NCBI GenBank assembly: GCA_007131295.1
Contig: SLQW01000032.1
Span: 19,935-83,934, forward strand
Direction of reading: 5' to 3'
From: Pseudomonadales bacterium
Lineage (GTDB): Bacteria; Pseudomonadota; Gammaproteobacteria; Pseudomonadales; Azotimanducaceae
DNA length: 64,000 nt
Below, piece by piece: positions 37,057 to 58,723 of the stretch; position 1 is the stretch's first letter; each line of letters begins with the position of its first letter. A program made the position numbers and the translations under genes. The notes beneath the pieces were generated by a model, which was given only the letters and a program-made list of their open reading frames with translations, was not told the origin of the DNA and did not search any database.

Positions 37057-37656
37057 GGCTCGAGGTTCAGGGGTCCAAATTCCGACAATGGCCCGGACCG
37101 ACGTCCGGCACGCTACAGCACTACCGCGATTACTTGAGACGGTATCCGCCCGCAGAAAAGCCAAGCAGGGCTGTGGCCCAAAGGCGCCGACATCGATCGC
37201 GATTCTCGTTCAATTGCTGAACGGTAGGCTACGTCCCGCTTCGAGGGCTGGCAACCACTTCAGCACTCCGGGTGCATGTCAGCGGCGGGCGTTTCAGGAC
37301 ACCCAGAAATCGCCGCCCAGTTAAGGACACCCAAGTTTTGGTCTCCCGCGTTCGAGTCGGGGGATGAATCGTGGACACCCAGACATTCAAAGCTCCGTCC
37401 GACCGTATCCTGCAAAGGTAGAGCCAGCGCTGCTGGATGTCCTATTGAGTCGTCGAGTGATACCGATGACTCCTGGATGTCCGTTGTCGCGCCCCCCCCC
37501 TGGGTGGCTCCACGATATCTGGGTGTCCGGTTTCGGCTCTCCGGTTTCGGCTCGCTGCTTCCCGTCGCGAATTTTGGGTGTCCGGTCTCGTGAGCCGTGC
37601 CACGGGGGAGGTGAGCCGGTAGGATGCTCAGCGGCTGGAAAGGGACGACGGGGCTC
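37057..37656. other. 600-base gap between the EPS regulator and cysD
   Basis: It lies between divergent genes and holds repeat cluster A (37297-37583), including a run of nine C at 37492-37500. No gene is supported; reading frames here run through the repeats. I see no clear sigma-70 promoter. Confidence 0.55.
37297..37583. repeat. GGACACCCAGA repeat cluster A (seven copies)
   Basis: Direct copies start at 37297, 37325 and 37373. Inverted copies (TGGATGTCC or TGGGTGTCC) follow at 37434, 37474, 37520 and 37575. The spacing is irregular (28-60 bases). All direct copies precede all inverted ones, so the whole cluster can fold back on itself. It is the 5' flank of cysD. Confidence 0.88.
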
Positions 37657-38568
37657 ATGATCGATACGCGACAACTCACCCACCTCGAGCGGCTCGAGGA
37701 CGAGAGCATCCACATCATTCGCGAGGTCGTGGCGGAGACCGAGCACCCAGTGATGCTCTACTCGATCGGCAAAGACAGCTCGGTGATGCTGCACCTGGCC
37801 ATGAAGGCCTTCTACCCGGCGAAACCGCCCTTTCCCCTGCTCCACATCGACACGCGCTGGAAGTTCCAGGAGATGTACGCATTCCGGGACCGCATCGCCC
37901 AGGAGATGGGCATGGATCTTCTGGTCTACGTCAATCCGGAGGGCGAACGCCGCGGCATCGATCCCTTCACCCACGGCTCGGCGATCCACACGGACGTCAT
38001 GAAGACCGAAGCACTCAAGCAGGCCCTGAACCAGTACGGCTTCGATGCGGCCTTCGGCGGCGCCCGCCGCGACGAGGAGAAGTCGCGAGCCAAGGAGCGC
38101 ATCTTCTCCTTCCGGACCAACCAGCACCGCTGGGACCCGAAAAACCAGCGCCCCGAGCTGTGGCGGCTCTACAACGCCCACAAGCACAAGGGTGAGTCGA
38201 TCCGCGTCTTCCCGCTTTCGAACTGGACCGAACTCGACGTCTGGCAGTACATCTATCTGAAGAACATCCCCATCGTCCCGCTCTACTTCGCCGCCGAACG
38301 GCCCGTGGTGCAGCGTGACGACGCCCTGATCATGGTCGACGACGAGCGCATGCCGCTGGCACCCGGAGAGCGCCCGGCCATGCGTAAGGTGCGCTTCCGC
38401 ACCCTCGGCTGCTACCCGCTGACCGGCGCGATCGACTCCGAGGCCGAGACCCTGACAGCGATCATTCAGGAGATGCTTCTGACCCGCACCTCGGAACGCC
38501 AGGGTCGGGTAATCGACCACGATGCCGCGGCTTCGATGGAGAAGAAAAAGCAGGAAGGCTACTTCTGA
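37657..38568 (+). CDS. cysD: Sulfate adenylyltransferase subunit 2
   Basis: The 303-residue PAPS-reductase-fold enzyme forms adenosine 5'-phosphosulfate with CysN. It has [18 protein letters not shown], the PP-loop [47 protein letters not shown] and the C-terminal [17 protein letters not shown] at 37657 fits the family start; the frame extends upstream only into the repeat region. The gene is followed by cysNC with a one-base overlap (TGATG). Confidence 0.96.
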
Positions 38569-40475
38569 TGTCCCACGCCCACGACGATCTCATCGCGCAG
38601 GACATCGAGCAGTACCTCGCCCGCCACGAGCGCAAGGAGCTGCTTCGCTTCATCACCTGCGGCAGCGTCGACGACGGCAAGAGCACGCTTATCGGGCGGC
38701 TCTTATTCGACTCCAAGATGCTGTTCGAGGACCAGCTCGCCGCCATCGAGCGCGACTCGAAGAAGTGGGGCACCCAGGCCGACGGCATCGACCTCGCGCT
38801 GCTGGTGGACGGTCTCGCCGCGGAACGCGAACAGGGCATCACCATCGACGTCGCCTACCGGTTCTTTGCCACCGACCGGCGCAAGTTCATCGTCGCCGAC
38901 ACGCCCGGCCACGAGCAGTACACCCGCAACATGGTCACCGGCGCATCCACCGCGGATGCGGCGATCCTGCTGATCGACGCCCGTCGCGGCGTGCTTACCC
39001 AAACCCGGCGCCATGGCTTCCTGGCCCACCTTCTTGGCATCCGCCACATCGTGCTCGCGATCAACAAGATGGATCTGGTCGGTTTCAGCGAGGAGACCTA
39101 TAGGGAGATCGTCGCCGAGTTCAAGGCCTTTGCCGAGATGATCGGCATACAGGCGTTCACCGCCATTCCGGTCTCGGCACTGAAAGGCGACAACGTCATC
39201 GAGCCGAGCGGGAACATGGACTGGTACACCGGCCCTACGCTGCTCGAGCTGCTCGAGCTGGTGGAAGTCGACACGACGCGACTGCTGCGCGCGCCGTTCC
39301 GCCTGCCGGTGCAGTGGGTGAACCGGCCCAACGCCGAGTTTCGCGGCTTCTGCGGCAGCATCGTCAGCGGCGCTATCGCAACCGGCGAGCGGATCAGAGT
39401 GCTGCCTTCAGGCAGGGAGAGCCGGGTCGAACGGATCGTAACCGCCGAAGGCGACCTACCGCAGGCGCAAGCCGGCCAATCGGTGACGCTGACGCTCAGC
39501 GACGAGGTGGACATTTCCCGTGGCGCCGTGATCGCTGCCGCCGATGCGCCGCCGGAGACCGCAGATCAATTCGAGGCACGCATCGTCTGGATGCAAGACG
39601 ACCCCCTGTTTCCGGGCCGCAACTACCTTTTCAAGGCCGGAACCAGCACCGTGGTCGGCACGGTCACAGCGATCAAGTATCAGGTGAACGTGAACACGCT
39701 CGAGCATCTCGCGGCCGAGAAGCTCGAGCTCAACGGCATCGGCGTGTGCAACATCAGTCTCGACCGGGCGATCGCCTTCGATCCCTATGACGCCAACCGG
39801 GAGATGGGCAGTTTCATTCTCATTGACCGTCTGACGCATCAGACCTGTGGCGCCGGCATGCTGAATTTTGCGCTGCGTCGGTCCCACAACATCCATCAGC
39901 AGCACGTGGACGTGGACAAGGCATCGCGCGCTGTCCTCAAGGGCCACCGCGCCGGCCTGGTGTGGTTCACTGGGCTTTCCGGTTCCGGCAAATCGACGGT
40001 GGCGAATCTGGTCGAAAAGCGTCTCCACGGCCTCGGCGTGCACACCTATCTGCTCGACGGTGACAACGTCCGCCACGGGCTCAACCGGGATCTCGGTTTC
40101 ACCGAAGCGGACCGGGTCGAGAACATCCGCCGGGTCGCTGAAGTGGGTAAGTTGATGGTGGACGCCGGCCTGATCGTGCTGACCGCGTTCATCTCCCCGT
40201 TCCGCTCCGAGCGAAGGCTCGCCCGCGAGCTGCTTGCGGAGGGTGAGTTCATCGAAGTGTTCATGAACACGCCCCTCGACGTTGCCGAGCAACGCGACCC
40301 CAAGGGGCTCTACAAGAAAGCCCGCCGCGGTGAGCTGAAAAACTTCACCGGCATCGACTCACCGTACGAGCCCCCGGAGCATGCGGAGATCACGCTGGAC
40401 ACCTCGCGCATGCCTCCCGAAGAGGCCGCCGACCGAGTGCTCGCTACGCTGCGCCAGCTCGGCTTTATCCGCTGA
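38568..40475 (+). CDS. cysNC: Sulfate adenylyltransferase subunit 1 / APS kinase fusion
   Basis: The 635-residue protein joins CysN (GTPase that drives APS synthesis) to CysC (APS kinase that makes PAPS). CysN shows G1 [15 protein letters not shown], the TIDVAYRFF switch, [17 protein letters not shown] and NKMDLV. The CysC part starts near 455 and has GLSGSGKST at 469-477, [17 protein letters not shown] and [37 protein letters not shown]. With cysD it produces PAPS. No cysH or sulfite reductase lies nearby, so use of PAPS for polysaccharide sulfation is plausible but unproven. Confidence 0.96.
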
Positions 40476-40522
40476 CCGGCGCCGTACCCGAGGGCTTGGA
40501 GGCCATCTCGTTTGGAGGCTCT

Positions 40523-41038
40523 CTAGCCCGACTTCAGTACGCGTTCGATTTCAGTCAGAGTCGCGCGAGCCATACGCAAGAGGGCAGGGACACGCTGATG
40601 CGCCGTATCAAGGGCGTCTGCGAGGTCGAGGATGTCCTCGTTGTACTCATGAACCATCTGCTCGTGCAGCTTCAGGTGCCGAAGCCAAGCCTCCGCCGAA
40701 TCGATCCAGCCAAGACGCTCGGCACGCTTAAGATCAGCCGCCGCTGATCCAGCAGCGACGCCACGATGCGCAAGCAGCGCGGGGATCAGGCGCTGGCTAA
40801 GGGTGTCCTGAAGACGCACGTAGCGGCTTACGAAAGCGTCGAGCCGTTCCGACAGGTCGACATCGGCGATCCAGTCCGCAACCGTGCTTGGAATGACGAT
40901 CTCAACATCGGCAAGCAGCCGTTTCGCCGACTGCTCGAGCAGGTCGATCTCTGTGGCGACGACGCGTGCGAGAAAGCGCAGCCCGGCCTCACCGTCTTCA
41001 TCCTCGCTCAACGGACCGACCCCGCTGTGCCAGCGCAA
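40523..41038 (-). CDS. Helical protein resembling HEPN (MNT/HEPN substrate-binding) partners
   Basis: The 171-residue all-helical protein contains RLDAFVSRYVRLQDTLSQRLIPALL and AERLGWIDSAEAWLRHLKLHEQMVHEYNED. The last segment resembles the H-E-Y end of HEPN proteins that pair with minimal nucleotidyltransferases (HepT-MntA type), but the usual Arg-Asn before the His is replaced by Lys-Leu-His-Glu. No nucleotidyltransferase gene lies on either side. A TTG at about 41005 could be the start instead. It follows the epimerase gene on the same strand after 240 bases. Function is uncertain. Confidence 0.55.
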   Translation of the reverse strand: MRWHSGVGPLSEDEDGEAGLRFLARVVATEIDLLEQSAKRLLADVEIVIPSTVADWIADVDLSERLDAFVSRYVRLQDTLSQRLIPALLAHRGVAAGSAAADLKRAERLGWIDSAEAWLRHLKLHEQMVHEYNEDILDLADALDTAHQRVPALLRMARATLTEIERVLKSG

Positions 41039-41279
41039 CGACGCTCGTAAACGTCACGCTCACTGCAAAACAGCATATCGGCAGACAGGGTCATAGTCGC
41101 ATCCGTTGCGGGCCCCTTGCGCCTTTTGATCGTATCAGTTCGAGCGCATCCGTCCGATAAAGCTCCCGACCTCCAGCTTTAGGCAGCCAACGAGGCCGAG
41201 GCTGCGCCCGCAGCACAGGGGTCTGGTGCATCTCGGTCGGACGGCTGCGCCCGTCCGGGAGGGCAGACCCAGAATACGC

Positions 41280-42287
41280 TCAGACGTCGTAATAGCGACG
41301 ATACCAAGCCACGAAGCGCTCGACGCCCTCTTCCACCTCAACCTCCGGTTTGTAGCCAACCGCCTCGAACAGCTCCGAGACATCGGCTTCGGTATCCGGT
41401 ACGTCGCCGGGCTGTAGCGGCAGCATCGCCATCTCGGCCTTGCGGTTGAGACAGCGCTCGAGCACTTGAATATATCGCAACAGCGTCACCCGCGCCTCAC
41501 TACCGATGTTGTAAAGGCGATACGGAGCAAGACTGCTCGCCGGGTCCGGATCGTCGCCATCCCAGCCCGGATCCGGCGCTGCAACGCGGTCGAGCGTGCG
41601 AACCACACCTTCGACGATGTCGTCGATGTAAGTGAAGCTGCGGCTGTGGTTGCCGTGGTTGAATACCTTGATCGGTTCCCCCGCCAGGATCGCGCGCGTG
41701 AACAGAAACAGCGCCATGTCTGGCCTGCCCCACGGTCCGTAGACTGTGAAGAAACGCAGCCCCGTACTCGGGATGCCATACAGGTGAGCATAGCTGTGGG
41801 CCATCATTTCATTGGCCTTCTTCGTCGCAGCGTAGAGGGTCAATGGATGCTCGGTGGACTGGTGTTCCGAAAACGGCATACGGGTGTTGGCACCGTAAAC
41901 CGAACTGGTGGAGGCAAATACGAGATGCTCTACCTCATGCTGCCGGCAGCCCTCGATCACATGCAGGAATCCGGTGAGGTTACTGCTCACGTAAACATGT
42001 GGATTCTCGGCGGCGTAGCGCACGCCAGCCTGAGCAGCGAGATGGACCACACGCTGCGGCCGGTGCGTCGCGAACAGCGTTTCCATCGCCTCACGGTCTG
42101 CCAGGTCAGCCGCAACATGGGCGTAGCCCGAAGCACATTCGAGCCGAGCAAGACGGGCGCGCTTCAGAGAGACATCGTAGTAGTCGTTCAGGTTATCGAG
42201 GCCGATAACCTCGTCGCCACGGTCGAGCAGATACTGCGCTACGTGACTGCCGATGAAGCCGGCGGTACCGGTGACCAGGACCTTCAT
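41280..42287 (-). CDS. UDP-glucuronate 4-epimerase
   Basis: The 335-residue extended short-chain dehydrogenase starts [24 protein letters not shown] with the GxxGxxG site at 7-13. It has [19 protein letters not shown], which is typical of UDP-glucuronate epimerases, [11 protein letters not shown], the catalytic Tyr152 and Lys156 (YAATKK), and [14 protein letters not shown]. It converts UDP-glucuronate to UDP-galacturonate; the substrate would come from Ugd encoded at 45389. ATG at 42287 fits the family exactly. Confidence 0.92.
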
Positions 42288-42360
42288 CGCAGCTCCATTT
42301 CTTCTCTAACGAACGCGCCGGCAAATGGCGCCACGCGATGACCAGAGTCGCGGGCCAGTG

Positions 42361-42528
42361 CTCGTTTGGTCGGGGCGGCCGGATTCGAACGGTTCCGCCC
42401 GCGGCGACGACCACCGGGGTCGCAAGACCCCTGGGTCAGTCCTCGTTTGGTCGGGGCGGCCGGATTCGAACGGTTCCGCCCACGGCGACGACCACCGGGG
42501 TCGCAAGACCCCTGGGTCAGTCCTCGTT
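42361..42528 (-). repeat. 81-bp tandem repeats carrying the tRNA-Pro 3' end
   Basis: Starting points at 42361, 42442 and 42523 give a period of exactly 81 bases; copies 1 and 2 differ at one base, and the third runs into the real tRNA-Pro gene. On the tRNA strand each unit holds GGTGGTCGTCG, a 14-base insertion, then TTCGAATCCGGCCGCCCCG with ACCA (the tRNA 3' third), followed by a hairpin GGGGTC-TTGC-GACCCC. The insertion breaks the T-stem, so they are not tRNAs. The frame stays open on both strands because 81 is a multiple of three. Confidence 0.93.
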
Positions 42529-42605
42529 TGGTCGGGGCGGCCGGATTCGAACCGACGACCACCACACCCCCAGTGTGGTGCGCTACCAGGCTGCGCTACG
42601 CCCCG
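42529..42605 (-). tRNA. tRNA-Pro (GGG)
   Basis: On the minus strand the acceptor CGGGGCG pairs with CGCCCCG, the anticodon arm CACACTGGGGGTGTG carries anticodon GGG, the T-arm is GTCGG-TTCGAAT-CCGGC, and CCA is encoded. Two further copies of its 3' end follow downstream in 81-bp repeats. Confidence 0.96.
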
Positions 42606-42616
42606 TGAGGGCGCGG

Positions 42617-42622
42617 ATTGTA
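42617..42622 (-). promoter_or_regulatory. Probable -10 box of the tRNA-Pro promoter
   Basis: On the minus strand TACAAT (5/6) lies 11 bases before the tRNA gene, followed by a GC-rich discriminator. The -35 region (TTCCCG at 17 bases) is weak. Confidence 0.5.
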
Positions 42623-42802
42623 CCGGATGTCATGAGACGCGGGAACCAAAGCAACGCGCAGACGGTGACGCGCATCAGGACATGCACCGTGCGTCGCCCA
42701 AAAGCCACCGCCCGCGTCATGCGGGTCCTGATGGACAGGCACTTCACGCGCTACACTGCGCTCGACTCCTATGAGTCTCTGTCAGTACGGGAAAGCACGC
42801 GC

Positions 42803-43312
42803 ATGGACCGTTGGTACGCCGTCTTCACCAAGCCTCGCCAAGAGCACGTTGCCGAAGAACACCTGGAGCGGCAGGCCTTCACGGTCTGGTTGCCCAGGCT
42901 GGAGCACAGCGTTCGGCACCGAGGCCGCTGGGTAGACCGGATTGAGCCGTTGTTTCCGCGCTACCTTTTCTTGCAGGCAGACGCAGCCGATCAGGATCTA
43001 TCTACGATTCGCTCTACGCGTGGCGTGACCGGCCTGGTGCGTCAGGGCATCGAGCCAGCAGTCGTTCCAGAGCAGGTCATCAGCTTTCTACGCGAGACCG
43101 CCGACCCCGAGTCTGGACTGCACCACATCGGCAGCCCGGCCCGTTTCAAGCGTGGTGATCGCGTGCGCGTCATCGAAGGACCCTTTGAGGGTCTTGAAGG
43201 CGTCCTGCTCAAGGAGAAGGGGGAAGAGCGTGTCCTTGTCCTACTCGCGATCCTCGGAGGCGAGCGCAACGTCGCACTCTCCACGCAGCAACTGATGCGC
43301 GCCAGAGGCTGA
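42803..43312 (+). CDS. RfaH-like specialised NusG antiterminator
   Basis: The 169-residue protein starts MDRWYAVFTKPRQEHVAEEHLERQAFTVWLPRLEHSVRHRGRWVDRIEPLFPRYLFLQ, the NusG N-terminal domain in its RfaH form, and ends in a KOW-type domain (ARFKRGDRVRVIEGPFEGLEGVLLKEKGEERVLVLLAILGGE). RfaH-like factors let RNA polymerase read through long polysaccharide operons. ATG at 42803 fits the family start; the upstream frame only translates the tRNA repeats. It lies opposite to, and between, tRNA-Pro and the MerR gene, next to polysaccharide genes. Confidence 0.9.
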   Translation: MDRWYAVFTKPRQEHVAEEHLERQAFTVWLPRLEHSVRHRGRWVDRIEPLFPRYLFLQADAADQDLSTIRSTRGVTGLVRQGIEPAVVPEQVISFLRETADPESGLHHIGSPARFKRGDRVRVIEGPFEGLEGVLLKEKGEERVLVLLAILGGERNVALSTQQLMRARG

Positions 43313-43477
43313 TCGGCGCGCCACACCGCCCCGTCGACCTACTCACCACCTGCTCAAAACAGACCAAGGAGGCGCAGCAGCGGCGTTTTGCGTGTCCCAT
43401 ATCAGAAGTACGTGCGTACGATGGGCCATGAGTCGCGCGGGCGCCAACGCAAGAAGGTTGACGTGCGGGAGATAGAG

Positions 43478-43834
43478 TCAACTTTTGAGGACGGAGAGAA
43501 CGTCCTCGAGCTCGACGATCATCTGGCGAATCAATTGCTTGTACTGGGTGACGTCTTCGCGGGCGTCCTCCCCTTCCAGGCGCTGCCGAGCGCCACCGAT
43601 AGTGAAACCCTGATCGTAGAGCAGAGAGCGGATCTGGCGGATGCAGATCACGTCACCGCGCTGATAGTAACGACGGTTGCCGCGGCGCTTGACTGGCTTG
43701 AGCTGAGGGAACTCCTGCTCCCAATAGCGGAGAACGTGGGGCTTCACGTCACAAAGCTGGCTGACTTCACCGATCGTGAAGTAGCGCTTGCCCGGAATCG
43801 GCGGCAACTCCTTGTTGTCACTTGCCTCCAGCAT
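43478..43834 (-). CDS. MerR family regulator of the ihfA neighbourhood
   Basis: The 118-residue protein has a MerR winged helix: [69 protein letters not shown], followed by a short coiled coil ([17 protein letters not shown]). No ligand-binding cysteines follow, as expected for the small MerR proteins encoded beside ihfA in many gammaproteobacteria. It overlaps the ihfA end by 17 bases, so the two are cotranscribed. Target genes are unknown. Confidence 0.92.
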
Positions 43835-44117
43835 ACGCCTCTACTCGCGCCTTGAGCTTCTGTCCGGGCCGGAAAGTCACCACGCGACGCGCGGAAATGG
43901 GAATTTCCTCTCCGGTTTTCGGATTACGCCCCGGCCGCTCAGCCTTGTCGCGGAGGTCGAAATTGCCGAACCCCGACAGCTTGACCTGTTCGTTGCGCTC
44001 GAGCGCACTACGAACCTCTTCAAAGAAGAGTTCCACAAGTTCCTTTGCCTCGCGCTTATTGAGGCCGAGTTCCTCGAACAAACGGTCAGCCATGGACGCC
44101 TTGGTTAATGTCGCCAT
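43818..44117 (-). CDS. ihfA: Integration host factor alpha subunit
   Basis: The 99-residue DNA-bending protein starts [40 protein letters not shown] and has the beta-arm [49 protein letters not shown] at 44117 matches the family start. With the beta subunit it bends DNA at WATCAANNNNTTR sites. Normally pheT directly precedes it; here about 2.9 kb separate them, so it must use its own promoter or read-through. A near-match IHF site lies about 100 bases upstream. Confidence 0.97.
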
Positions 44118-44214
44118 CAGGACCGCCCAGCCCTCGATCCAGGATGTCACTTGCTGTTAAGCGTGCGGCAACAGCCTCGAAAGGTCAACTGGAAACTTCA
44201 ATTTTTTCTCGATG

Positions 44215-44227
44215 AATCAAGACCTTC
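44215..44227 (+). promoter_or_regulatory. Near-consensus IHF site upstream of ihfA
   Basis: AATCAAGACCTTC matches WATCAANNNNTTR at all but the last position and is preceded by an A/T tract (ATTTTTTCTCG). IHF is known to repress its own alpha gene in E. coli, so autoregulation is possible. Confidence 0.35.
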
Positions 44228-44272
44228 AGGCGACTATCCACAGATCGGATGAAGACAGTTGCACAGCGCCAG

Positions 44273-45232
44273 TCAACTCCAGTGGCTCGAGAAGTCCGCC
44301 AAGAAGGCATCCAGATCGCCGTTCGGCAGCGCATTGATGCCGCCAGCTCCACTGCGGCCACCGCCCGTCGGCCAGCGCCGGCAAAGCTCATCGGCACCAC
44401 GGCGACGGCTGTTGGGCGCACGAATACTGATGCGCCAGGCCCCGTTGGCAGATGACGTCACCACAGCGTGCGCACGATCGGGGAAGTCGTTCGCCAACGC
44501 GTTGCTCCAGACACCTGAAACACGCCGGGACCAGGCTTCATCGGGCAGCAGGAAAGCAGCAGCCGACGGAGACTCAGTCAGCAGTTCCGCAGCGTCTGCG
44601 CGAGCCATGTCCTCGGCGTAGCCAGCATCCAGGGCAGCAAAGGGACCGCTTGCATCGTTCACCACGTCGAGCGGCTCTACGTACGGCAGCAGGCGCCTAT
44701 AGAGTTCTGCGGGGTGGAAATGCAAATCGTCTAGGCTGGCTCCGTAGCCATTGTAGTTGATGCAGATACCTAGGCGCTCGAGGCGCTCGAGGTCCGGTGC
44801 CGCGAGACCCAGCGGCGCCGCAGCCTTGCGGGCACTCGCGGGCATGTTGTCCCCGAATGCAGCCACCACGGCCCAAGCTGCAAAACGCCCGTCGAGGGCG
44901 TCATTGACCAGCAACGCGGTACATACGTCGGCCGCGGTGTCGATGGTCGCTTCGAGGTTGGCGGAAACCGGCAGTTCGCCTGCGAAGTGATGGTCGAAGT
45001 AGCGAACCGAAGCGCCAGCAGCCAGGATGCGCTCCAGCGCCGCCCGATTCGTATCGAGGGAGACATCGAGAACCAGAACTTCGTCGCCGGCAACGGCCTC
45101 GACCCGTTCGAGCAGAGCGATTTCCCGCTTGACGCCGGTGACGAGCTCCGAGTCTCTGGGTTCAGCAAGCCGCATCTGCAGCAGCGAGCAGATCCCGTCA
45201 GCGTCACCATTGAAAACGTCGTAGCGGGTCAT
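44273..45232 (-). CDS. DHH family phosphoesterase-like protein
   Basis: The 319-residue protein begins MTRYDVFNGDADGICSLLQMRLAEP, with the DGD-type first motif, then VLVLDVSLDTN, YFDHHFAGELP (the DHH motif) and an Asp-containing CTALLVNDAL region; the C-terminal part has the glycine-rich GGGRSGAGGINALP as in DHHA1 domains. DHH proteins hydrolyse short oligonucleotides, cyclic dinucleotides or phosphoesters; the substrate is unknown. ATG at 45232 has AGAGG upstream. It lies downstream of ugd on the same strand across an AT-rich stretch. Confidence 0.85.
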   Translation of the reverse strand: MTRYDVFNGDADGICSLLQMRLAEPRDSELVTGVKREIALLERVEAVAGDEVLVLDVSLDTNRAALERILAAGASVRYFDHHFAGELPVSANLEATIDTAADVCTALLVNDALDGRFAAWAVVAAFGDNMPASARKAAAPLGLAAPDLERLERLGICINYNGYGASLDDLHFHPAELYRRLLPYVEPLDVVNDASGPFAALDAGYAEDMARADAAELLTESPSAAAFLLPDEAWSRRVSGVWSNALANDFPDRAHAVVTSSANGAWRISIRAPNSRRRGADELCRRWPTGGGRSGAGGINALPNGDLDAFLADFSSHWS

Positions 45233-45269
45233 CGGCAGAGCCTCTTGTGCATGCACCGCTTCGAGAATC

Positions 45270-46711: not shown

Positions 46712-47016
46712 CCGCTTGTCCCGGTTCCGAGGTCTGACCCAGTGTGCGGCAGCCCGATCGCACCTTAGTCGCGCTGGCTCACTCCGTCCACGTCTGCCAT
46801 AGCTCCATCCCCCGACGCGGCAGAATCCTGGACACCCAGAGGTTTCCGAACCAGTTGCAGGAGGGGCCCGTTCAGGACACCCAGAGCTTCTGAGCAGATT
46901 CGGGAACGTAGATTCTGGACACCCAGAACGCCCTGCCCGTACCTAGCCGACTCGTGGGTGTCCCATTGCCAGCGCGCCAATCTCTGGGTGTCCGCCCTTA
47001 GCGCATGGGCGACGGC
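46712..47016. other. Gap between pheT and ugd
   Basis: These 305 bases consist mainly of repeat cluster B and include the likely ugd promoter region just upstream of 46711. No gene is supported. Confidence 0.5.
46830..46993. repeat. GGACACCCAGA repeat cluster B (five copies)
   Basis: Direct copies of the full 11-mer start at 46830, 46875 and 46917; inverted copies are at 46955 (TGGGTGTCC) and 46983 (TCTGGGTGTCC). The spacing falls from 45 to 28 bases. The cluster begins 23 bases beyond the pheT stop, at the left border of the ugd-DHH segment. Confidence 0.9.
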
Positions 47017-49455: not shown

Positions 49456-50583
<1,128 letters not shown>

Positions 50584-50943: not shown

Positions 50944-50989
50944 GACCTTCCTTCCTCTCTAGAGTCGCAAGCTACTGCCGGAAAACCGC

Positions 50990-51187
50990 TCAGCGGTCCA
51001 TCGGCAACATGCGCTTGATGAGTTTCACATCCGCGTCATGAACGTCCTTGAGTCCGCGCAAGTGACGCTTTCTCTTGGTCGCCTTCTTGGTGAGGATGTG
51101 ATTCCGGAAGGCCTGCCGGTGTTTGAAACCGGAACCCGTCTTCTTGAAGCGTTTTGCCGCTCCACGATTGGTCTTGATCTTCGGCAT
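50990..51187 (-). CDS. rpmI: Ribosomal protein L35
   Basis: The 65-residue basic protein starts [45 protein letters not shown], an unambiguous L35. ATG at 51187 is chosen over longer frames by family length. It lies between infC and rplT as in most bacteria. Confidence 0.98.
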
Positions 51188-51401
51188 GGTGCATCTCCGC
51201 ATTGAGTAAAACGAGCGCCATCTGCGCTCACGATCGCCCGGCCAGCTGCCGGGCCCACGGGGTCGGATGGATGCGGTTACCCATCTCGACACCCTCGGAA
51301 GCCATGGCCTCCGAACTGCTGCGGCCGGTGGAGCAAGACGCCCGACCGGCCGCAGCGAGTGCCCTATGTCACGGCGACGCCGTTACGTCACCCGCGCCTC
51401 A

Positions 51402-51947
51402 TCACTTCTTACGAGCCCGGGGCGCCAGAATCATCGTCATCTGGCGGCCCTCCATCTTCGGCTCCGCTTCAACCCCGGCTTCGAGCTCGAGGTCATCGCG
51501 AATCCGGTGCATGAGATCCAGCCCAAGATCCTGGTGCAGCATTTCTCTGCCACGGAAGCGCAACGTCACTTTCGCCTTGTCACCGTCCTCGAGGAAGCGA
51601 CGAATGTTGCGCAGCTTGACCTGGTAATCGGCTTCCTCAGTCCCAGGCCTGAACTTCATTTCTTTGAGCTGAGTCTGCTTCTGTTTCTTCTTCTGGAGGT
51701 TACGCTCTTTCTTCTGCTCGAAGATGTGCTTGCCGTAATCCATGATTCGGCAAACAGGCGGCTCCGCGTCCGCTGCCATCAAGACCAGATCGAGCTCCTT
51801 GGATTGTGCCCGCTCGAGCGCGTCATCTCGCGGAACAATGCCGATCTGAGTGCCGTCGACATCGATCAGTCGAACCTCACTGGCGATGATGGCTTCGTTG
51901 ATGGTGGCGCGCTTGGAAGGCGACTGCCCCTGACTTCCTCGCTTGAT
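51402..51947 (-). CDS. infC: Translation initiation factor IF-3, ATC start
   Basis: The 181-residue protein is complete only if translation begins at the ATC at 51947 ([20 protein letters not shown]), with GGAG eight bases upstream; the first in-frame ATG, near 51782, would remove the whole N-terminal domain. [33 protein letters not shown] is the N-domain, [20 protein letters not shown] the linker and [31 protein letters not shown] the C-domain. Use of a rare non-AUG start (AUU in E. coli) underlies IF-3 autoregulation. thrS, the usual upstream neighbour, is absent. Confidence 0.95.
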
Positions 51948-52063
51948 ATTGCGATCTCCGATCGAATAACAAAAGCCATCGCCCTTACTTCGGCCAATTC
52001 AAACGCGAAGGAAGGTTGAGGCACACTAAGAGCGTGCTGGCCCTGAGGCTTAAGCACTCCCAA

Positions 52064-52092
52064 ATTTTAGATGCGCCCAGAGCTGCTGGCAA
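52064..52092 (-). promoter_or_regulatory. Sigma-70 promoter of infC
   Basis: On the minus strand TTGCCA and TAAAAT (both 5/6) are exactly 17 bases apart. The transcript would start about 110 bases before the infC start codon. Confidence 0.72.
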
Positions 52093-52225
52093 GCATCCGG
52101 CATGCCTTTGTAAGACACCTTTTCCCGAATGCTCAACCACTTAGCGGACAGCAGCCATGCATCCACCCCCTTTCACCACTGCGAAACCGTCGCGAAAGGG
52201 GCCGGCGAGCCTAATCGCCCAAAAC

Positions 52226-52302
52226 TGGTAGGCGCGATTGGATTCGAACCAACGACCCCCACCATGTCAAGGTGGTGCTCTAACCAACTGAGCTACGCGC
52301 CT
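52226..52302 (-). tRNA. tRNA-Val (GAC)
   Basis: On the minus strand acceptor AGGCGCG pairs with CGCGCCT, the anticodon arm CCACC-TTGACAT-GGTGG has anticodon GAC (52266-52268 complement), the T-loop is TTCGAAT and CCA is encoded. Confidence 0.97.
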
Positions 52303-52347
52303 GGGAATGCCCCTGCGGATGGCATCGACCTCCGCCGAGGGAGCGCG

Positions 52348-52376
52348 AGTATAGCGGCGCAACCCCAGGGCGGCAA
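52348..52376 (-). promoter_or_regulatory. Sigma-70 promoter of tRNA-Val(GAC)
   Basis: On the minus strand TTGCCG and TATACT are 17 bases apart, followed by a GC-rich discriminator. It lies between repeat cluster C and the tRNA gene. Confidence 0.72.
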
Positions 52377-52395
52377 TAACGCGCCCTCAAATCGG

Positions 52396-52496
52396 GGACA
52401 CCCACATTCACCACCTGCTGCGGAGGTCCTGGACACCCAGACTGCTTCTGGGTGTCCACAATCTGCAATCCGGGCTTCCAGGTTTTCTGGGTGTCC
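52396..52496. repeat. GGACACCCAGA repeat cluster C (four copies)
   Basis: Direct copies at 52396 and 52431, inverted copies at 52447 and 52486. The middle pair forms a perfect 11-bp hairpin with a five-base loop (GGACACCCAGA-CTGCT-TCTGGGTGTCC). The cluster lies between the uvrB stop and the tRNA-Val promoter. Confidence 0.92.
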
Positions 52497-52519
52497 ACGC
52501 TTGCTACGCGATATTGCGC

Positions 52520-54556
52520 TCAGCTCGGGAGGAGTAGTTTCTCCCGCAGCGCCTGAAGTTCGTCTCGAGCCGCTGCAGCCTGTTCGAACTCGAGATTGCG
52601 TGCGTGCTCGAACATACGTTCTTCGAGTTCCGCTATCTCCTTGCCGATATCCTCAGGGTCAAGGCGGACTGCCCGCGCCCGACCGTAGCCCCCACGCTTT
52701 TCCGCCACTTTCTTCTGCCTGCCCTTCCCTGAGGCAGCACCCGGTTCACGACGCCCTGCCTCCATGACGTCCCCTACGGCCTTGCGGATGCTCGCCGGCG
52801 TTATGCCATGAGCCGCGTTGTGGGCCATCTGCTTCGCGCGCCGACGCTCTGTTTCATCTATGGCCCTGCGCATAGAGTCTGTGACCTGGTCCGCATATAG
52901 AATTGCGCGCCCGCGCAGGTTGCGAGCAGCGCGACCGATGGTCTGAATCAGGGAACGCTCTGCGCGCAGGAAGCCCTCCTTGTCGGCATCGAGAATGGCA
53001 ACGAGCGCCACCTCAGGCATGTCGAGCCCTTCTCTGAGAAGGTTGATCCCCACCAGCACATCGAAGATGCCGCTGCGCAAGTCGCGAATGATCTCGTAAC
53101 GTTCCACCGTGTCGATGTCGGAGTGCAGATAACGCACGCGTACGCCATGCTCGTCGAGGTATTCGGTGAGGTCTTCCGCCATGCGTTTCGTCAGCGTCGT
53201 GACCAGGACCCGATCGCCACCGGTCACCGCCTCGCGAATCTCCCCGAGCAGATCGTCAACCTGACTGGCAGCGGGTCGGACCTCGAGCTCTGGATCCACC
53301 AGCCCAGTCGGCCGGACCACCTGCTCTACCACTTGACCGGCGTGTTGCTCCTCGTAGGGTCCTGGAGTGGCTGAGACGAAGATTGCTTGCGGGCAGAGCC
53401 GCTCCCACTCGTCAAATCGCAGCGGTCTGTTGTCGAGCGCAGAGGGGAGACGGAACCCGTATTCGACCAGCGTTTCCTTACGCGAGCGATCGCCCTTATA
53501 CATACCGCCAACCTGCGGAACCGTGACGTGCGATTCATCGATCACGAGCAGGGCGTCGTTTGGCAGGTAGTCGAACAGCGTAGGCGGAGGTTCGCCTGAT
53601 TCGCGCCCAGAGAGGTAGCGGGAGTAGTTCTCGATGCCGGAGCAGTAGCCTAACTCCGCGATCATCTCCAGATCGAATCGGGTTCGCTGTTCGAGACGTT
53701 GGGCTTCCAGCAGCTTATCCCGCCCGCGCAGCCAATCCAGCCGGTCCCGGAGCTCGGCCTTGATGTCGTCGAGTACCGCAAGGATGCGCTCCCTGGGCGT
53801 GACGTAATGAGTTTTCGGGAAGATCGTGTAGCGGGGAACCTTGCGCAGGATCTCGCCGGTGAGCGGATCGAACAGGGCGATGGTCTCGATCTCGTCGTCG
53901 AAAAGCTCCAACCGGACGCCTTCCCGCTCCGACTCAGCGGGATGAATGTCGATGACGTCACCGCGCACGCGGTAGGTGCCGCGCTGAAATACCATGTCAT
54001 TGCGCGTGTACTGCATGTCAGCGAGCCTGCGCAGGATCTGGCGCTGGTCCATACGGTCGCCGCGATCTAGATGAAGCACCATCTTGAGATAGGAAGCCGG
54101 GTCACCGAGACCGTAAATTGCCGAGACTGAGGCGACGATGATGCTGTCTCTTCGCTCGAGCAGCGCCTTGGTGGCGGACAGGCGCATCTGCTCGATGTGG
54201 TCATTGATGCTCGCGTCCTTTTCGATGTAGGTATCGGAAGACGGGACGTACGCTTCAGGCTGGTAATAGTCGTAATAGGAGACGAAATACTCGACCGCAT
54301 TGTCGGGGAAGAACCCGCGAAACTCACCATAGAGTTGCGCGGCAAGCGTCTTGTTGGGGGCAAGAACGAGAGTCGGTCGTTGAACCTGCTCGATGACTTT
54401 AGCGATAGTGAAAGTCTTGCCGGATCCCGTCACTCCAAGCAGGGTCTGATGCGACAGCCCGTCGCGCAGCCCGCGTACCAGCTGGTTGATCGCTGCCGGT
54501 TGATCGCCAGCGGGCTCAAAGTCGGCGCGAACTGTGAAACACTGCTCAGCCTGCAT
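52520..54556 (-). CDS. uvrB: UvrABC excision nuclease subunit B
   Basis: The 678-residue helicase-like protein has Walker A GVTGSGKT at 41-48, the beta-hairpin [22 protein letters not shown] that verifies damage, DESHVTVPQ and [24 protein letters not shown], helicase motifs ([40 protein letters not shown]) and the C-terminal UVR domain ([32 protein letters not shown]). ATG at 54556 ([20 protein letters not shown]) fits the family. It acts in nucleotide excision repair with UvrA and UvrC. Repeat cluster C follows its stop. Confidence 0.97.
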
Positions 54557-54693
54557 GTGCGGACTCGAAACGGCCACGACGAAGGCGAGGCAGCATAGCA
54601 CGGCTTCACATGGTGGCCTCGACCCGTCAAGCCCATGAAAACACTCACCAAATTGGGTCTGCGTCGAGGCGCGGATCGATGTCGAGCACCCTC

Positions 54694-54721
54694 TTGCAAA
54701 TCCCAGGCTGCGCCGTACACT
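54694..54721 (+). promoter_or_regulatory. Candidate promoter of tRNA-Asn
   Basis: TTGCAA and TACACT, 16 bases apart, are followed by ACGCCCCC, a GC-rich discriminator typical of stable-RNA promoters. The tRNA begins about 40 bases on. Confidence 0.55.
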
Positions 54722-54761
54722 ACGCCCCCTGTCGCGGCCGAGCCGGTCGCGCGTCGAGCAT

Positions 54762-54837
54762 TCCGCCTTAGCTCAGTTGGTAGAGCAGCTGACTGTTAAT
54801 CAGCGGGTCGCTGGTTCGAGCCCAGCAGGCGGAGCCA
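54762..54837 (+). tRNA. tRNA-Asn (GTT)
   Basis: Acceptor TCCGCCT pairs with AGGCGGA. The anticodon loop CTGTTAA has anticodon GTT at 54795-54797, and CCA is encoded. A strong terminator follows nine bases later. Confidence 0.97.
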
Positions 54838-54845
54838 TCTCTAGG

Positions 54846-54873
54846 AAGGGCCTGGCCACAGGCCCTTTTCGTT
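54846..54873 (+). terminator. Intrinsic terminator of tRNA-Asn
   Basis: AAGGGCCTG-GCCA-CAGGCCCTT is a perfect 9-bp stem with a four-base loop followed by TTCGTT. Confidence 0.9.
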
Positions 54874-55252
54874 CCAGGCCGCTATTCGTTCGTATCCAGC
54901 GTGGATCTGCTGCTGCGTTGTCCCACCAGCCCTTGGAACGGTCTGCAAGGACATGCGCAACTCGCCGGATACTGGCATCAAGACATTCGATGACACCCAA
55001 ACTTGGTCGGCGTGCGCGCAGCAACCCGACGCGTTCGACTGTGCCGTGCGCACAAGATCAAAAGATCAAAGACACCCATCGAAGCTCTGGATGTCCCAGA
55101 ACTTTCGGTAGTCACTCGCCCAGTTTCTGGATGTCCTCCCTTGCTGCTCATTCGCTCCCCTTGCAAGCAGCGAGGCCGCATCGGTGATCTCCTACGCTCG
55201 AATCAGAGCATTGCGCTATTCAGCGCCGACCCGAGCAGCGCAGGCTGTAGCC
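54874..55252. other. Gap between tRNA-Asn and the RAYT gene
   Basis: These 379 bases contain repeat cluster D and no supported gene. The last 100 bases before the RAYT start hold no clear promoter. Confidence 0.5.
54991..55146. repeat. GGACACCCAGA repeat cluster D (four variant copies) upstream of the RAYT
   Basis: Direct variants TGACACCCAAA (54991) and AGACACCCATC (55070) are followed by inverted TCTGGATGTCC copies at 55086 and 55136. All are diverged from the 11-mer at one to three positions. The second and third copies form an imperfect hairpin with a five-base loop. The RAYT gene starts about 107 bases after the last copy. Confidence 0.8.
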
Positions 55253-56281
55253 ATGACTATCGCGCGCGCCAAAGTGTTCGACCCGTACAAGGCAGCGGCC
55301 TACCACTGCCACACCCGCTGTGTCCGAGGCGCGAGACTGTGCGGCAGGGATCCGTTCACCGGCCACTCCCGCGAGCACAGACGAGGTTGGATCGAAGCGC
55401 GGATGCTCGATCTCTGCGAAAGCTTCGCCGTCGGGCTCTACGCCTGGGCCGTCATGCACAACCACTATCATCTGGTTCTCGTCGTCGACCCGTGCCTACC
55501 GGCCCAGTGGTCCGATGAGGAGGTAGCCCGGCGCTGGTGCCGCCTGACGCAGATCCCCGGCGCCAGGAGGGACCCGCGCAAGGTCCAGACGGCTGAATCC
55601 GCACTGCTTGCCGACCCTGAAAGCTTGGCTGAACGGCGCCGACGCCTGGGGTCGCTGAGCTGGTTCATGCGCTACATGAACGAAGGGATCGCACGATGCG
55701 CCAATCGTGAAGACGGCTGCAAGGGCCGCTTCTGGGAAAGCCGCTACGGATCCCAAAACCTCCTCGATGACACCGCCATGCTCGCCGGCATGTCATATGC
55801 CGACCTCAATCCGATCCGGGCTGGAATGGCAGATGAACTGGCAGACAGCCGTTATACGGCGGTCCATCGACGTCTCACGGCCCTGACTACGGGGGAAATG
55901 GAAGCTGACACTCCGCTCATGCCGCTTGCTGGAACCGTGACGAACTTTGCGCCTGCGATCACGGTCGGTCAGTACCTCGACCTGCTGGACTGGTCAGGCC
56001 GCCAGCAACGCCCGGGCAAGGCCAGCCTGGATCCGGACGTACCTTCTGCGCTCGTCTCGGCGTTGGCTTCGACCTCGGTCGCACCGCGGGCTTGGCTGCG
56101 CATCAGCGCTGGTCTTCAGCAGGTTTTTGCGTCCGCTGTTGGCTCCTTCACCAGCCTGCAGGCGCATGCCGCAAGAACGGAACGCGCCTGGCTGCGCGGC
56201 ATGGGTTTTTGCCGTCAGTTGACGCGTTCATCTGCGGACGCGGCTGCCGTAGGTCGCCTCACTCGAGCAGGGCCGCAATGA
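55253..56281 (+). CDS. REP-associated tyrosine transposase (Y1_Tnp, RAYT)
   Basis: The 342-residue protein has the HUH nuclease fold of IS200/RAYT transposases: MTIARAKVFDPYKAAAYHCHTRCVRG at the N-terminus, the metal-binding pair His71/His73 in NHYHLV, and the catalytic Tyr141 in LSWFMRYMNEGIARC, followed by GCKGRFWESRYGSQNLLDDTAMLAGMSYADLNPIRAGM, typical of the long gammaproteobacterial RAYT branch. RAYTs nick and move REP elements in trans. All motifs are intact. It overlaps the convergent mltB end by 23 bases, and repeat cluster D lies upstream. Confidence 0.9.
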   Translation: MTIARAKVFDPYKAAAYHCHTRCVRGARLCGRDPFTGHSREHRRGWIEARMLDLCESFAVGLYAWAVMHNHYHLVLVVDPCLPAQWSDEEVARRWCRLTQIPGARRDPRKVQTAESALLADPESLAERRRRLGSLSWFMRYMNEGIARCANREDGCKGRFWESRYGSQNLLDDTAMLAGMSYADLNPIRAGMADELADSRYTAVHRRLTALTTGEMEADTPLMPLAGTVTNFAPAITVGQYLDLLDWSGRQQRPGKASLDPDVPSALVSALASTSVAPRAWLRISAGLQQVFASAVGSFTSLQAHAARTERAWLRGMGFCRQLTRSSADAAAVGRLTRAGPQ

Positions 56282-57509
56282 CATCTGGATGGGGGTGGCC
56301 ATCTGCTACCATACCGTGCGCCTGCTGAAACCGACTCAATGCTGCCCTGGTCGCCGGGCCGAAGATCCCATCCGCACTGCCCGCGTCGAACCCGAGCGCA
56401 TTCAGCTGTTCCTGGATACGCTTCACATCGTCCCGAGCCAGCGCCTGAGCGTCCTCAGGCGGAGCCTGCTGGAGCGTTCCCCCGCCGGCGATGCGGTCTG
56501 CGAGATGCCCGACCGTCAGAGCGAAAAACTCGGAGCGATTCCAGCGCATGATGACTTCAAAATTCTCGTAGACGAGAAACGCAGGGCCACGGTGACCAGA
56601 AGGCACCAGCAACGACGCCTCCACGTCCGCCTGGGGTAGCGATGTCCCATCCGCCATAGTCACTCCGTAATCGCGCCAGGCCTCCAGTGAGTGCCGCTGA
56701 TTGCGCCCGGCGAGCTCATAGCGGAAGCCCTCCGGGAGTCGGACTTCGCGCCCCCATCTAAGACCAGGCTGCCAGCCGATACCACGGACAAAGTTGCCTG
56801 CTGACGCCATCGCATCAGGAATGCTGCCCCAGAGATCCCGCCGACCGCTGCCGTCGCCATCAACGGCATAACGCAGGAACACTGATGGCATAAACTGCAC
56901 ATGGCCCATCGCTCCCGCCCAGGAGCCCTGCATGCGCTCAGGACTGATGTCGCCCGCGTCGATGATTCGCAGCGCCGCAATCAGCTCTCCGGTGAAGTAC
57001 TCGCTGCGGCGAGGATCGCAGGCAAGCGTCGCCAACGAGTCAGGGACCGACATGTTGCCGAAGAAACTACCGAAGTTTGTCTCGAGCCCCCAGAGCGCCA
57101 CCAGGTACTGTGCAGGTACGCCCGTATCGCGCTGTACGCGTTGCAGCAGCTCGCTGTGCTCGGCCAGTAACGCACGGCCACGCGCAACCCTATCCTCACT
57201 CACCCGACGACCGAAGTAATCCGTAAACGTCTGAGTGAACTCTGGTTGCCGACGGTCGAGTTCGATCACTCGAGCTACGTACTGCACTTGCCCCAGGACG
57301 TTTTCAACGGTCGGCTCCGAAATACCCTCAGAACGCGCACGTTCCTGCAACCCTCCGACACATTGCTGGAAGGCTTCGTCCTCCGCTCGGACCGAGGCCC
57401 CCGCCAGCACAAGAAGCACGACGGTCACGACCCAGGCCCCTGAACCCAATCGATGCCATGCAGATGCCGCTGCCCCAAGTACTACAGCCATCGTCACTGT
57501 CCTCGTCAC
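56259..57509 (-). CDS. mltB: Membrane-bound lytic murein transglycosylase B
   Basis: The 416-residue protein has a signal or anchor segment (WVVTVVLLVLAGASVRA), an SLT_2 domain with the catalytic Glu in LVALWGLETNFGSFFG, MQGSWAGAMGHVQFMPSVFLRYAVDGDGSGRRDLWGSIPDAMASAGNFV, and a C-terminal peptidoglycan-binding repeat (IQEQLNALGFDAGSADGIFGPATRAALSRFQQAHGM). It cleaves glycan strands to anhydro-muropeptides in the periplasm. An ATG nearer the hydrophobic segment may be the true start. No lipobox Cys is evident. Confidence 0.92.
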   Translation of the reverse strand: MTRTVTMAVVLGAAASAWHRLGSGAWVVTVVLLVLAGASVRAEDEAFQQCVGGLQERARSEGISEPTVENVLGQVQYVARVIELDRRQPEFTQTFTDYFGRRVSEDRVARGRALLAEHSELLQRVQRDTGVPAQYLVALWGLETNFGSFFGNMSVPDSLATLACDPRRSEYFTGELIAALRIIDAGDISPERMQGSWAGAMGHVQFMPSVFLRYAVDGDGSGRRDLWGSIPDAMASAGNFVRGIGWQPGLRWGREVRLPEGFRYELAGRNQRHSLEAWRDYGVTMADGTSLPQADVEASLLVPSGHRGPAFLVYENFEVIMRWNRSEFFALTVGHLADRIAGGGTLQQAPPEDAQALARDDVKRIQEQLNALGFDAGSADGIFGPATRAALSRFQQAHGMVADGHPHPDVIAALLE

Positions 57510-57719
57510 GGATGCAATTCCTGCGCGTCAGCATAGCGAACACGCACTACCTCGCGCAGCCCGCTATTTCGCTGCGCGTCCACATGAACTGTACAGGCAC
57601 TCTATTCCGCAAATGCGCGAGGGGATTGCGGAGCGGCTTATGGGGATAACGTCGAAAGCCTGGTGCTGACAAGAGACCATCCAGCACCGAAAATGATGGG
57701 GCCTGGATCGATAGCCGAA

Positions 57720-58067
57720 TCAGCGCACCCAGCTCTCCACTTCTTCGGAACCGTGTTCCGCCTTCCAGGCCTTGAGTATCTTGTGATTGCCCCCGCGCGT
57801 CTGAATCTTTTCACCCGTATGAGGATTGATATAAGTCTTCAACTTGCGCTTCTTGCGGGTACGCCCGGTTGCGGCCTTTACCTTCGTGGCCCGGCCGGCC
57901 TTCGGCAAGTCATTCAGCGTCTTGCCGTGCTTTTTCAAGAGCGCCTCTAGGTCCTCGAGAAACGCAAGCTCTTTCTGAACGACCTTACTCTTCTTGAGCT
58001 GATCTAGCTCCTGCTTCACGCGCTCGAACTCTTGTTGCTTTTTTCGCAGTTGCGCGACTCTATCCAT
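57720..58067 (-). CDS. mvaT: MvaT family H-NS-like nucleoid protein
   Basis: The 115-residue protein has an N-terminal coiled coil (MDRVAQLRKKQQEFERVKQELDQLKKSKVVQKELAFLEDLEALLKKHGKTLNDLP), a basic linker and the MvaT DNA-binding domain (YINPHTGEKIQTRGGNHKILKAWKAEHGSEEVESWVR). MvaT and TurA of Pseudomonas silence AT-rich foreign DNA and control polysaccharide and biofilm genes. The upstream region is itself AT-rich, which fits autoregulation. The gene lies between mltB and the DUF1538 operon. Confidence 0.93.
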   Translation of the reverse strand: MDRVAQLRKKQQEFERVKQELDQLKKSKVVQKELAFLEDLEALLKKHGKTLNDLPKAGRATKVKAATGRTRKKRKLKTYINPHTGEKIQTRGGNHKILKAWKAEHGSEEVESWVR

Positions 58068-58209
58068 TCGATGACCCCGAATATTATTGGAAATTGAATT
58101 GACAAGCTTGCGGCAAGAATTATTTCAGAAAAATTATGGCCGGGAAACTGTTCAACGCAAAGTACAAGCCAAAAGATCAGGGCCTGTTCTTGGCAAAGCA
58201 CCAATGAAA
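58068..58209. other. AT-rich leader region of mvaT
   Basis: The first 100 bases (for example AATATTATTGG and AATTATTTCAG) are far more AT-rich than the surroundings and probably contain the mvaT promoter and silencer binding sites. No sigma-70 pair with good spacing is obvious. Confidence 0.5.
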
Positions 58210-58485
58210 TCAACCGGCCGGGGAACAGCTGAATGCTATCCGACCATGTGTACCGAGTTTCGCTTCCTTGCAGCGCTTGAAATCTACCGTGCGTAGCAAG
58301 AGTAGTTCGGCAGGGCCTCTCAAAAAGGCATCCAATTTAAGCCTTTTAACGAGTAGCGAACGGACTTCACCAAAAAGATCGCCACTGCCAAGTAGACGTT
58401 CTCGGCTGACCTTGTTGCCGGATAAGGTCTGGATCGCAAGGCCTACGATCGCTGCTGACGCCATCGAATGCGTGACCGCCAACAA
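58210..58485 (-). CDS. Possible small hypothetical gene or gene remnant
   Basis: A 91-codon frame without ATG at its start (TTG at 58485, MLAVTHSMASAAIVGLAIQ) has moderately protein-like content, including LLGSGDLFGEVRSLLVKRLKLDAFLRGPAELLLLRTVDFKRC. Its GC content is lower than that of the neighbours. I do not recognise a family. Upstream it continues in frame into the repeats of cluster E, so it may be a decayed gene cut by them. Confidence 0.25.
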   Translation of the reverse strand: MLAVTHSMASAAIVGLAIQTLSGNKVSRERLLGSGDLFGEVRSLLVKRLKLDAFLRGPAELLLLRTVDFKRCKEAKLGTHGRIAFSCSPAG

Positions 58486-58523
58486 CTGCCTGGCCCCAAA
58501 GTCGTCCAGCGGGCGAATTTCTT

Positions 58524-58723
58524 TGGGTGTCCCAGATCCCCCCTCTGATCCCGAGTCGCCCGCAACGTCTACACCTGTTCACCAGAGCCCACCCCGGATT
58601 GCTCTTGGGTGTCTCAGATCATCACCCGGACGGGCGTTTGAGGATCTCGAAAATCCCGAATCGCGTGTGGGTGTCTAAGATCAATCTGGGTGTCCAAGGT
58701 TGCGGAGAGCATTCTGGGTGTCC
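58524..58723 (-). repeat. GGACACCCAGA repeat cluster E (five copies, one orientation)
   Basis: On the plus strand TGGGTGTCC or TGGGTGTCT begins at 58524, 58616, 58668, 58687 and 58715; the last two are full TCTGGGTGTCC. Unlike clusters A-D all point the same way. Three inner copies share a following AGATC. The last two copies lie inside or against the C-terminal codons of the hydrolase gene. Confidence 0.88.

Follow-up and report, generated by a model that had tools for sequence, protein, structure and literature searches.

The window analyzed here is the whole of a 64,000-nucleotide stretch (positions 19935-83934 of contig C14, SLQW01000032.1) from the 3.87 Mb genome of a Pseudomonadales bacterium (family Azotimanducaceae), assembled in 222 contigs. 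It contains five clusters of a short repeated word, arrays A to E, and, between D and E, a gene for a RAYT-like HuH/tyrosine enzyme (Table 1). The initial annotation, which was silent on this gene, had described the clusters as an organized repeat system of unknown role that is not a tandem repeat, a CRISPR array or a simple pair of repetitive extragenic palindromic (REP) units. Our results support this description and allow the unknown role to be replaced: the arrays are very probably companion repeats of the family to which the RAYT-like enzyme encoded inside the region belongs.

The site in the window arrays is the nine-base GGACANNCA, mostly as GGACACCCA. The 11-mer GGACACCCAGA, allowing one mismatch, has 19 matches in the window, compared to a mean of 1.20 and a largest value of 4 in 100 dinucleotide shuffles; 12 of the 19 are exact, all at 37297-58723. 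Genome-wide, the exact 11-mer is above chance, with 16 copies in 3.87 Mb against ∼2.8 expected from base composition, and 12 of the 16 are on contig C14. The 25 copies first reported for the 11-mer are valid for the degenerate core GACAYCCA only, because the core count in the five clusters is exactly 25 while that of the exact 11-mer is 12. Six more copies of the core lie elsewhere in the window (at 4379, 32626, 32783, 33515, 47338 and 61395), and the first 37 kb holds no group of three or more, as had been noted. The core strands confirm that every direct copy precedes every inverted copy in A-D, while E is inverted only; the perfect 11-bp hairpin of array C, with its five-base loop, is real (52385-52510 folds at a z score of -3.96), and the spacers within A-E have no visible similarity. 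In array D, the direct copies are TGACACCCA and AGACACCCA, and the inverted copies are GGACATCCA.

The enzyme encoded in the window carries the motifs NHYH, FWES and YADLNP. Among 65 family sequences, H71, H73, W161 and D184-P187 are invariant and Y182 is nearly so; the consensus reads FWEGRF and YVDLNP, and the third residue of the HuH motif is variable. Lengths range from 284 to 454 aa, mostly 308-345 aa, among the 120 homologues listed of 727. The predicted structure has a HuH fold, in which the HuH/tyrosine core appears to be shared with Escherichia coli TnpA_REP; in the model, strand 71-78 is separated from helix 135-154 by helices at 82-131, and the chain continues as a tail after ∼190. 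By motifs, length and hosts, the enzyme and its family (∼325 aa) apparently represent TnpA_Y1 subclass 2.3, for which the accessible text of Quentin et al. 2018 (PMC6006769) gives the motifs NHYH, WE and YVDLNP, a median length of 325 aa, a long insertion separating the HuH strand from the core helix that follows, and an extended C-terminal tail. Both the insertion and the tail appear in the modelled enzyme. According to the same text, neither an automatic nor a manual search found REP-like sequences in this subclass.

Table 1. Arrays and enzyme gene of the window (window coordinates)
Feature	Position	Strand or core order	Context
Array A	37297..37583; cores 37298-37582	+++----, 7 cores	intergenic, upstream of cysD-like gene 37624-38568
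Array B	46830..46993; cores 46831-46992	+++--, 5 cores	between UDP-sugar dehydrogenase gene and pheT 3' end
Array C	52396..52496; cores 52397-52495	++--, 4 cores	between tRNA-Val and uvrB 3' end
Perfect 11-bp inverted pair, five-base loop	52431..52457 (arms 52431-52441 / 52447-52457)	+	inside array C
Array D	54991..55136; cores 54992-55135	++--, 4 cores	between tRNA-Asn and enzyme gene
RAYT-like HuH/tyrosine enzyme gene	55253..56281	+	342 aa from ATG; GTG start at 55184 gives 365 aa
Array E	58522..58723; cores 58524-58722	-, 5 inverted cores	last two cores inside 3' end of hydrolase open reading frame (ORF) 58681-59922

Association of the arrays with the enzyme gene

Similar arrays are found in many Gammaproteobacteria and in a few other phyla. 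Of the 61 genomes examined from the same family, 14, belonging to 11 of 37 genera, have pairs of the form GGACACCCAN{10,40}GGACACCCA, and a reversed control pattern has zero matches in all 61. A scan of named genomes gave at least 118 loci; among those listed, 64 have arrays of at least three sites whose spacings are not uniformly divisible by three. Based on crude gene calls, the clusters in the fetched stretches are mostly intergenic. The hosts listed include Pseudohongiella, Microbulbifer, Tahibacter, Salinisphaera, Alteromonas, Simiduia and many uncultured Gammaproteobacteria and, outside the Proteobacteria, Acanthopleuribacter pedis (Acidobacteriota), which also carries the enzyme gene. 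Cultured carriers include Shewanella decolorationis S12 (L071) and Microbulbifer sediminum (L086). Irregular arrays of at least three cores were seen as well in 21 of 120 loci on viral contigs (L173-L292), possibly as host DNA in proviruses. Three array contigs (L061, L125 and L168) stand under a record titled Klebsiella pneumoniae MAG MH-08apr19-131, a title that may misfit the content.

When the ORFs of 81 array loci were compared all against all, the enzyme family was present in 24 loci, while the next families reached at most 7. The gene is carried by 26 of the 61 family genomes (49 protein matches), in which we counted array pairs in five versions of the two variable letters (NN) of the site, with gaps of 10-40 for GGACACCCA and 8-38 for the other versions. 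The gene is present in 19 of 23 genomes with such pairs, but in only 7 of 38 without them (Fisher 1e-6). Similarly, for 21 gene-less array loci hand-picked from the array loci (more exist), the gene was found elsewhere in 19 of their 20 genomes, in G351 only as a fragment. Three of the 20 genomes are not independent because their other loci had already revealed the gene; counting independent genomes only, the proportion is 16/17. In contrast, the gene was in none of 12 picked genomes whose matches were presumed to be due to chance or coding sequence; these controls are Actinobacteria and Firmicutes, and the fairer baseline is therefore the 44 gene-bearing genomes among 274 Gammaproteobacteria.

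The orientation of the sites was examined at loci chosen via protein search alone, which avoids selection for the motif, counting sites within 1.5 kb of the gene. At 30 family loci (of the 49 protein matches), GGACANNCA was found 52 times on the plus strand to the left of the gene and 45 times on the minus strand to the right, compared to 11 minus-strand sites on the left and 10 plus-strand sites on the right. Class-wide, with one locus (the best match) from each of 30 genomes out of the 44 that bear the gene, there were 38 left plus and 43 right minus, but 4 left minus and 0 right plus (81 inward, 4 outward), with at least one inward site at 24 of the 30 loci. With eight permuted control patterns, no cell of either set exceeded 8. 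The sites therefore point into the gene from both sides, on either gene strand. Another 20 gene loci, from genomes chosen for arrays, yielded 80 inward and 8 outward sites. Some gene copies (L312, L316 and L314) have few or no GGACANNCA nearby and other repeated words instead, GGCCACAC at L312 and L316 and TACTGACA at L314; the site may vary outside NN in these cases.

The order of orientations seen in A-D is kept in clusters elsewhere that contain both orientations. Among 129 clusters of at least three sites, 90 have one orientation only and 39 have both; 34 of the 39 are purely direct-then-inverted, 0 are inverted-then-direct and 5 are mixed (L069, L108, L134, L152 and L162), while shuffling gave a mean of 6.9 and a maximum of 15 direct-then-inverted clusters. 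Neither of the two outcomes that the initial annotation had named as speaking against it, a genome-wide count near chance or disordered clusters elsewhere, was found. The initial annotation had proposed that each cluster can fold back on itself, and indeed 31 whole direct-then-inverted clusters fold at a mean z score of -5.6 relative to shuffles, with 28 of 31 below -2. Single 59-nt units, on the other hand, fold like random nearby DNA (z of -0.19 versus -0.20, 150 each). In single-stranded DNA, opposed sites could thus come together.

Two-letter versions, duplications and shared places

The two variable letters of the site change from locus to locus but little inside one locus. Within the 39 loci with at least two inward sites, NN identity is 0.66, compared to a shuffled mean of 0.26, and 0 of 5000 shuffles reached 0.66. 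In the source genome, 9 of 10 GGACACCCA pairs are on C14 and C97, the contigs that carry its two copies of the enzyme gene and that make up 2.4% of the genome. In G006, the gene contig C13 holds 20 of 21 GGACACCCA pairs and 21 of 24 GGACAGCCA pairs, while the gene contigs C85 and C2 hold 10 of 10 GGACACACA pairs. In G039, a single contig, GGACAGGCA accounts for 52 pairs and the other four NN versions are absent; 33 of the pairs are at 428-456 kb, and the gene is at 437.7-438.5 kb. Furthermore, 18 of 38 genes share their main NN with the gene of the nearest protein, compared to a shuffled mean of 10.1 (P = 0.008). Overall, the NN pair is locus-specific, and dispersed arrays follow it in several genomes. 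G039 also has GGACAGGCA fields at 2265-2291 kb and 2547 kb of its contig C1, distant from the only gene copy detected in that genome, which are perhaps the sites of lost gene copies.

A second regularity is a duplication at the motif. At 82 of 752 clustered sites, in 80 different units and 52 loci, a stretch of 7-16 nt is exactly duplicated in tandem, and the duplication ends between positions -2 and +5 relative to the motif. Among 39 unambiguous duplications, the commonest end was between GGA and CA (11 of 39). No duplication ended at +10 to +17, and 18 ended at -18 to -11; the 3' side had no peak. Duplications that end at GG, or at GGA before C, are likely the footprint of cutting: they would result if the DNA were nicked beside GGA and then underwent fill-in or strand transfer.

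The places of the arrays can be compared with those in G059, a genome of the same genus in which the region is syntenic with the window. G059 has arrays at the intergenic places of A, B, C and D, in the version GGACATCCA and often as 19-base units; there is no array at the place of E, and there are extra arrays unseen in the window. Over the two regions, GGACANNCA occurs with 29 TC, 10 CC and 7 GC in G059, but with 17 CC and 5 TC in the window. When the cores were masked, the alignment of intergenic sequence exceeded shuffles for A and C, was unclear for B and did not exceed them for D. The enzyme gene of G059 lies at the same uvrB-mltB place but is 56% identical, compared to 89% and 82% for its neighbors. 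The arrays would have been either rewritten in place or formed repeatedly at the same spots. At L353-L354 (contig C52 of G059), the outer ends of several clusters share an inverted CCCACCCAAATA-like sequence, as if clusters had ends. Apart from the arrays, positions 42352-42513 of the window hold two 81-bp tandem copies (96% identical) that resemble part of the tRNA-Pro gene at 42529-42605, and both match one single place in G059.

Interpretation, alternatives and known systems

We consider it highly probable that the clusters are arrays of the nine-base GGACANNCA, which at loci chosen via protein search flank and point to genes of this RAYT-like family; the enzyme likely nicks single-stranded DNA beside GGA. 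At the level of sequence, the arrays are associated with the gene, are oriented inward and share versions; binding by the enzyme, cutting at the site and rewriting of the arrays are what we infer from this. The enzyme would bind GGACANNCA and nick beside GGA in single-stranded DNA; opposed copies may pair in such DNA and bring two sites together, like the halves of a REPIN, and strand transfer or fill-in after cutting would produce duplications. Nicking is thereby predicted to lead to arrays that are multiplied, made uniform and spread locally. In several genomes the arrays are concentrated within ∼20 kb of the gene, which would fit a mainly cis-acting enzyme.

Several observations weigh against this interpretation. 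First, the window gene itself has no strict inward GGACANNCA within 1.5 kb: its two inward cores are TGACACCCA and AGACACCCA in array D, in which the first G is replaced by T or A, the strict copies near it are two outward GGACATCCA, and array E is 2.3 kb away. Second, gene and arrays do not always coincide. Array pairs are borne by 4 of 35 gene-negative family genomes (G016, 91% complete, and G028, G048 and G058, 73-85% complete), with twelve GGACACACA pairs and no enzyme gene at E 1e-8 in G016. Conversely, 7 of 26 gene-positive family genomes (G001, G017, G019, G029, G038, G044 and G053) have no pairs of the five versions, and one of the 20 array genomes, ZC4RG39, has 22 sites in its locus but no gene match; the 12 control genomes, moreover, belong to distant phyla. 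Third, the loci pooled for the order test were in many cases picked by a direct-pair pattern, overlapping contigs were kept in, and 90 of its 129 clusters have a single orientation. Fourth, within-locus NN identity comes partly from tandem copying, and replication slippage could produce the duplication footprint. Finally, the versions do not follow the gene everywhere: G003 alternates TC and CC versions; in G013, where GG flanks the gene, four GGACACACA pairs lie away from the gene contig, and G030 likewise has pairs of other versions away from gene contigs; 0 of the 29 pairs of G020 (25 CC and 4 CA) are on gene contigs; and the arrays of G059 are dispersed, with 19 of 59 CC and TC pairs on its two gene contigs. 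The similarity of the motifs is only weakly correlated with the distance between the proteins (r of -0.127, 107 of 5000 permutations as extreme), with relatedness left in.

The alternative that survives best, although we find it unlikely, is that array, gene and array move together as one transposon, with the arrays as its multiple terminal repeats, and that gene-less clusters are miniature derivatives with joined ends. Inverted arrays on both sides of the gene, on either gene strand, are what such a unit would have, several gene copies and fragments are present in some genomes, and the CCCACCCAAATA-like inverted flank is shared by several cluster ends in G059. However, the gene-less clusters of one genome do not have common spacers, unlike copies of one element. 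The two species share four intergenic places but with different sequence versions, and the uvrB-mltB place of the enzyme gene is likewise kept despite its low identity relative to the neighbors. We identified no fixed end or target duplication, although no systematic search for either was made. Less probable still is that the arrays bind a separate nucleoid or regulatory protein and that the enzyme gene is merely nearby. A conserved, non-palindromic 9-mer in intergenic clusters does resemble an array of protein-binding sites, but the inward orientation at loci chosen by the gene, the presence of the gene in 19 of 20 array genomes tested, the match between NN versions and gene contigs in several genomes and the tandem duplications at the motif all argue against it. 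Finally, we hold it very improbable that the clusters are mainly transcription terminators or RNA-stabilizing structures at gene ends, as the strong folding of the 31 clusters and of array C and the position of B, C and E directly after minus-strand genes might suggest, given that array A, by the longer ORF calls, lies between diverging genes, single units show no folding beyond that of nearby DNA, only one orientation is present in 90 of the 129 clusters, the inverted-then-direct order would form an equal hairpin yet is never seen as a pure order, and the link with the enzyme gene is left unexplained.

The enzyme and its arrays may be one case of a broader rule, which we propose tentatively and with less than even confidence: the whole HuH subclass may be a chromosome-resident array-writer that cuts a nine-base word, duplicates the adjacent 7-16 bases, and builds, locally spreads and re-letters convergent direct-repeat arrays between genes, each enzyme imposing its own GGACA-NN-CA version while the places are kept.

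Our reading of the system is that it is REP/TIRYT-like, with sites in non-palindromic direct-repeat arrays instead of hairpins. Like TnpA_REP/RAYT with its REPs (the REPtron) and like REPIN and BIME, it has an enzyme of the IS200-like-fold HuH/tyrosine type with a repeat family of its own beside the gene, repeats dispersed between genes, opposed copies that can form a larger hairpin, and paralogues with different repeat versions. A gene with its own repeat family that is also dispersed genome-wide, by which RAYTs are recognized, was found here, with exceptions. However, REP units are palindromes with a 5' GT[AG]G foot, whereas the 9-bp site is non-palindromic and does not itself form a hairpin. 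At the position that decides whether the complementary strand reads GTGG, 42% of 664 sites have C, and there is no conserved GTAG/GTGG foot. Also unlike REPs, the sites form direct-repeat arrays with unrelated spacers, and the enzyme has ∼325 aa, compared to ∼150-165 aa for TnpA_REP/RAYT in the accessible text of PMC6006769. IS200/IS605 elements, which are mobile units with subterminal hairpins and often tnpB, appear to differ in that there is no hairpin at the unit here, the protein is long and arrays occur without the gene.

The TIRYTs (TIRtrons) of Di Nocera and colleagues 2013 (PMC3733652) are, as far as the accessible text describes them, similar in that a RAYT-like gene lies between inverted repeats that have no relation to GTAG repeats and that are in part also scattered in the genome, as dimers or clusters. 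The terminal inverted repeat (TIR) consensus given there is GGGGWSAS, with which GGGGACAC is compatible, but the bases preceding GGACA are not conserved as G here; the accessible passages of that paper describe flanking TIRs rather than arrays of a nine-base core, and its main text contains no word starting GGACA. According to PMC6006769, as accessible, 20 of 26 TIRYTs are of subclass 2.1. In the accessible text of the open-licence papers on RAYTs, REPs and TIRYTs we found no description of the present arrays.

The closest counterpart of the enzyme is TnpA_Y1 subclass 2.3, which, in the accessible text of PMC6006769, similarly has mainly Gammaproteobacterial hosts and several divergent copies in some genomes. 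The difference is that the survey reported no REP-like repeats for this subclass, whereas a flanking repeat system is found here. Subclass 2.3 is thus a published orphan, transposase-like and hitherto lacking a known substrate, and a defined nine-base site would make its function testable in vitro. The footprint between GGA and C suggests how bacterial intergenic repeats grow, and the two-letter versions, which tend to go with the enzyme, provide a natural series from which to learn how a HuH enzyme reads sequence. Compared to the REP systems, the site would represent a REP-like system whose unit is not a hairpin.

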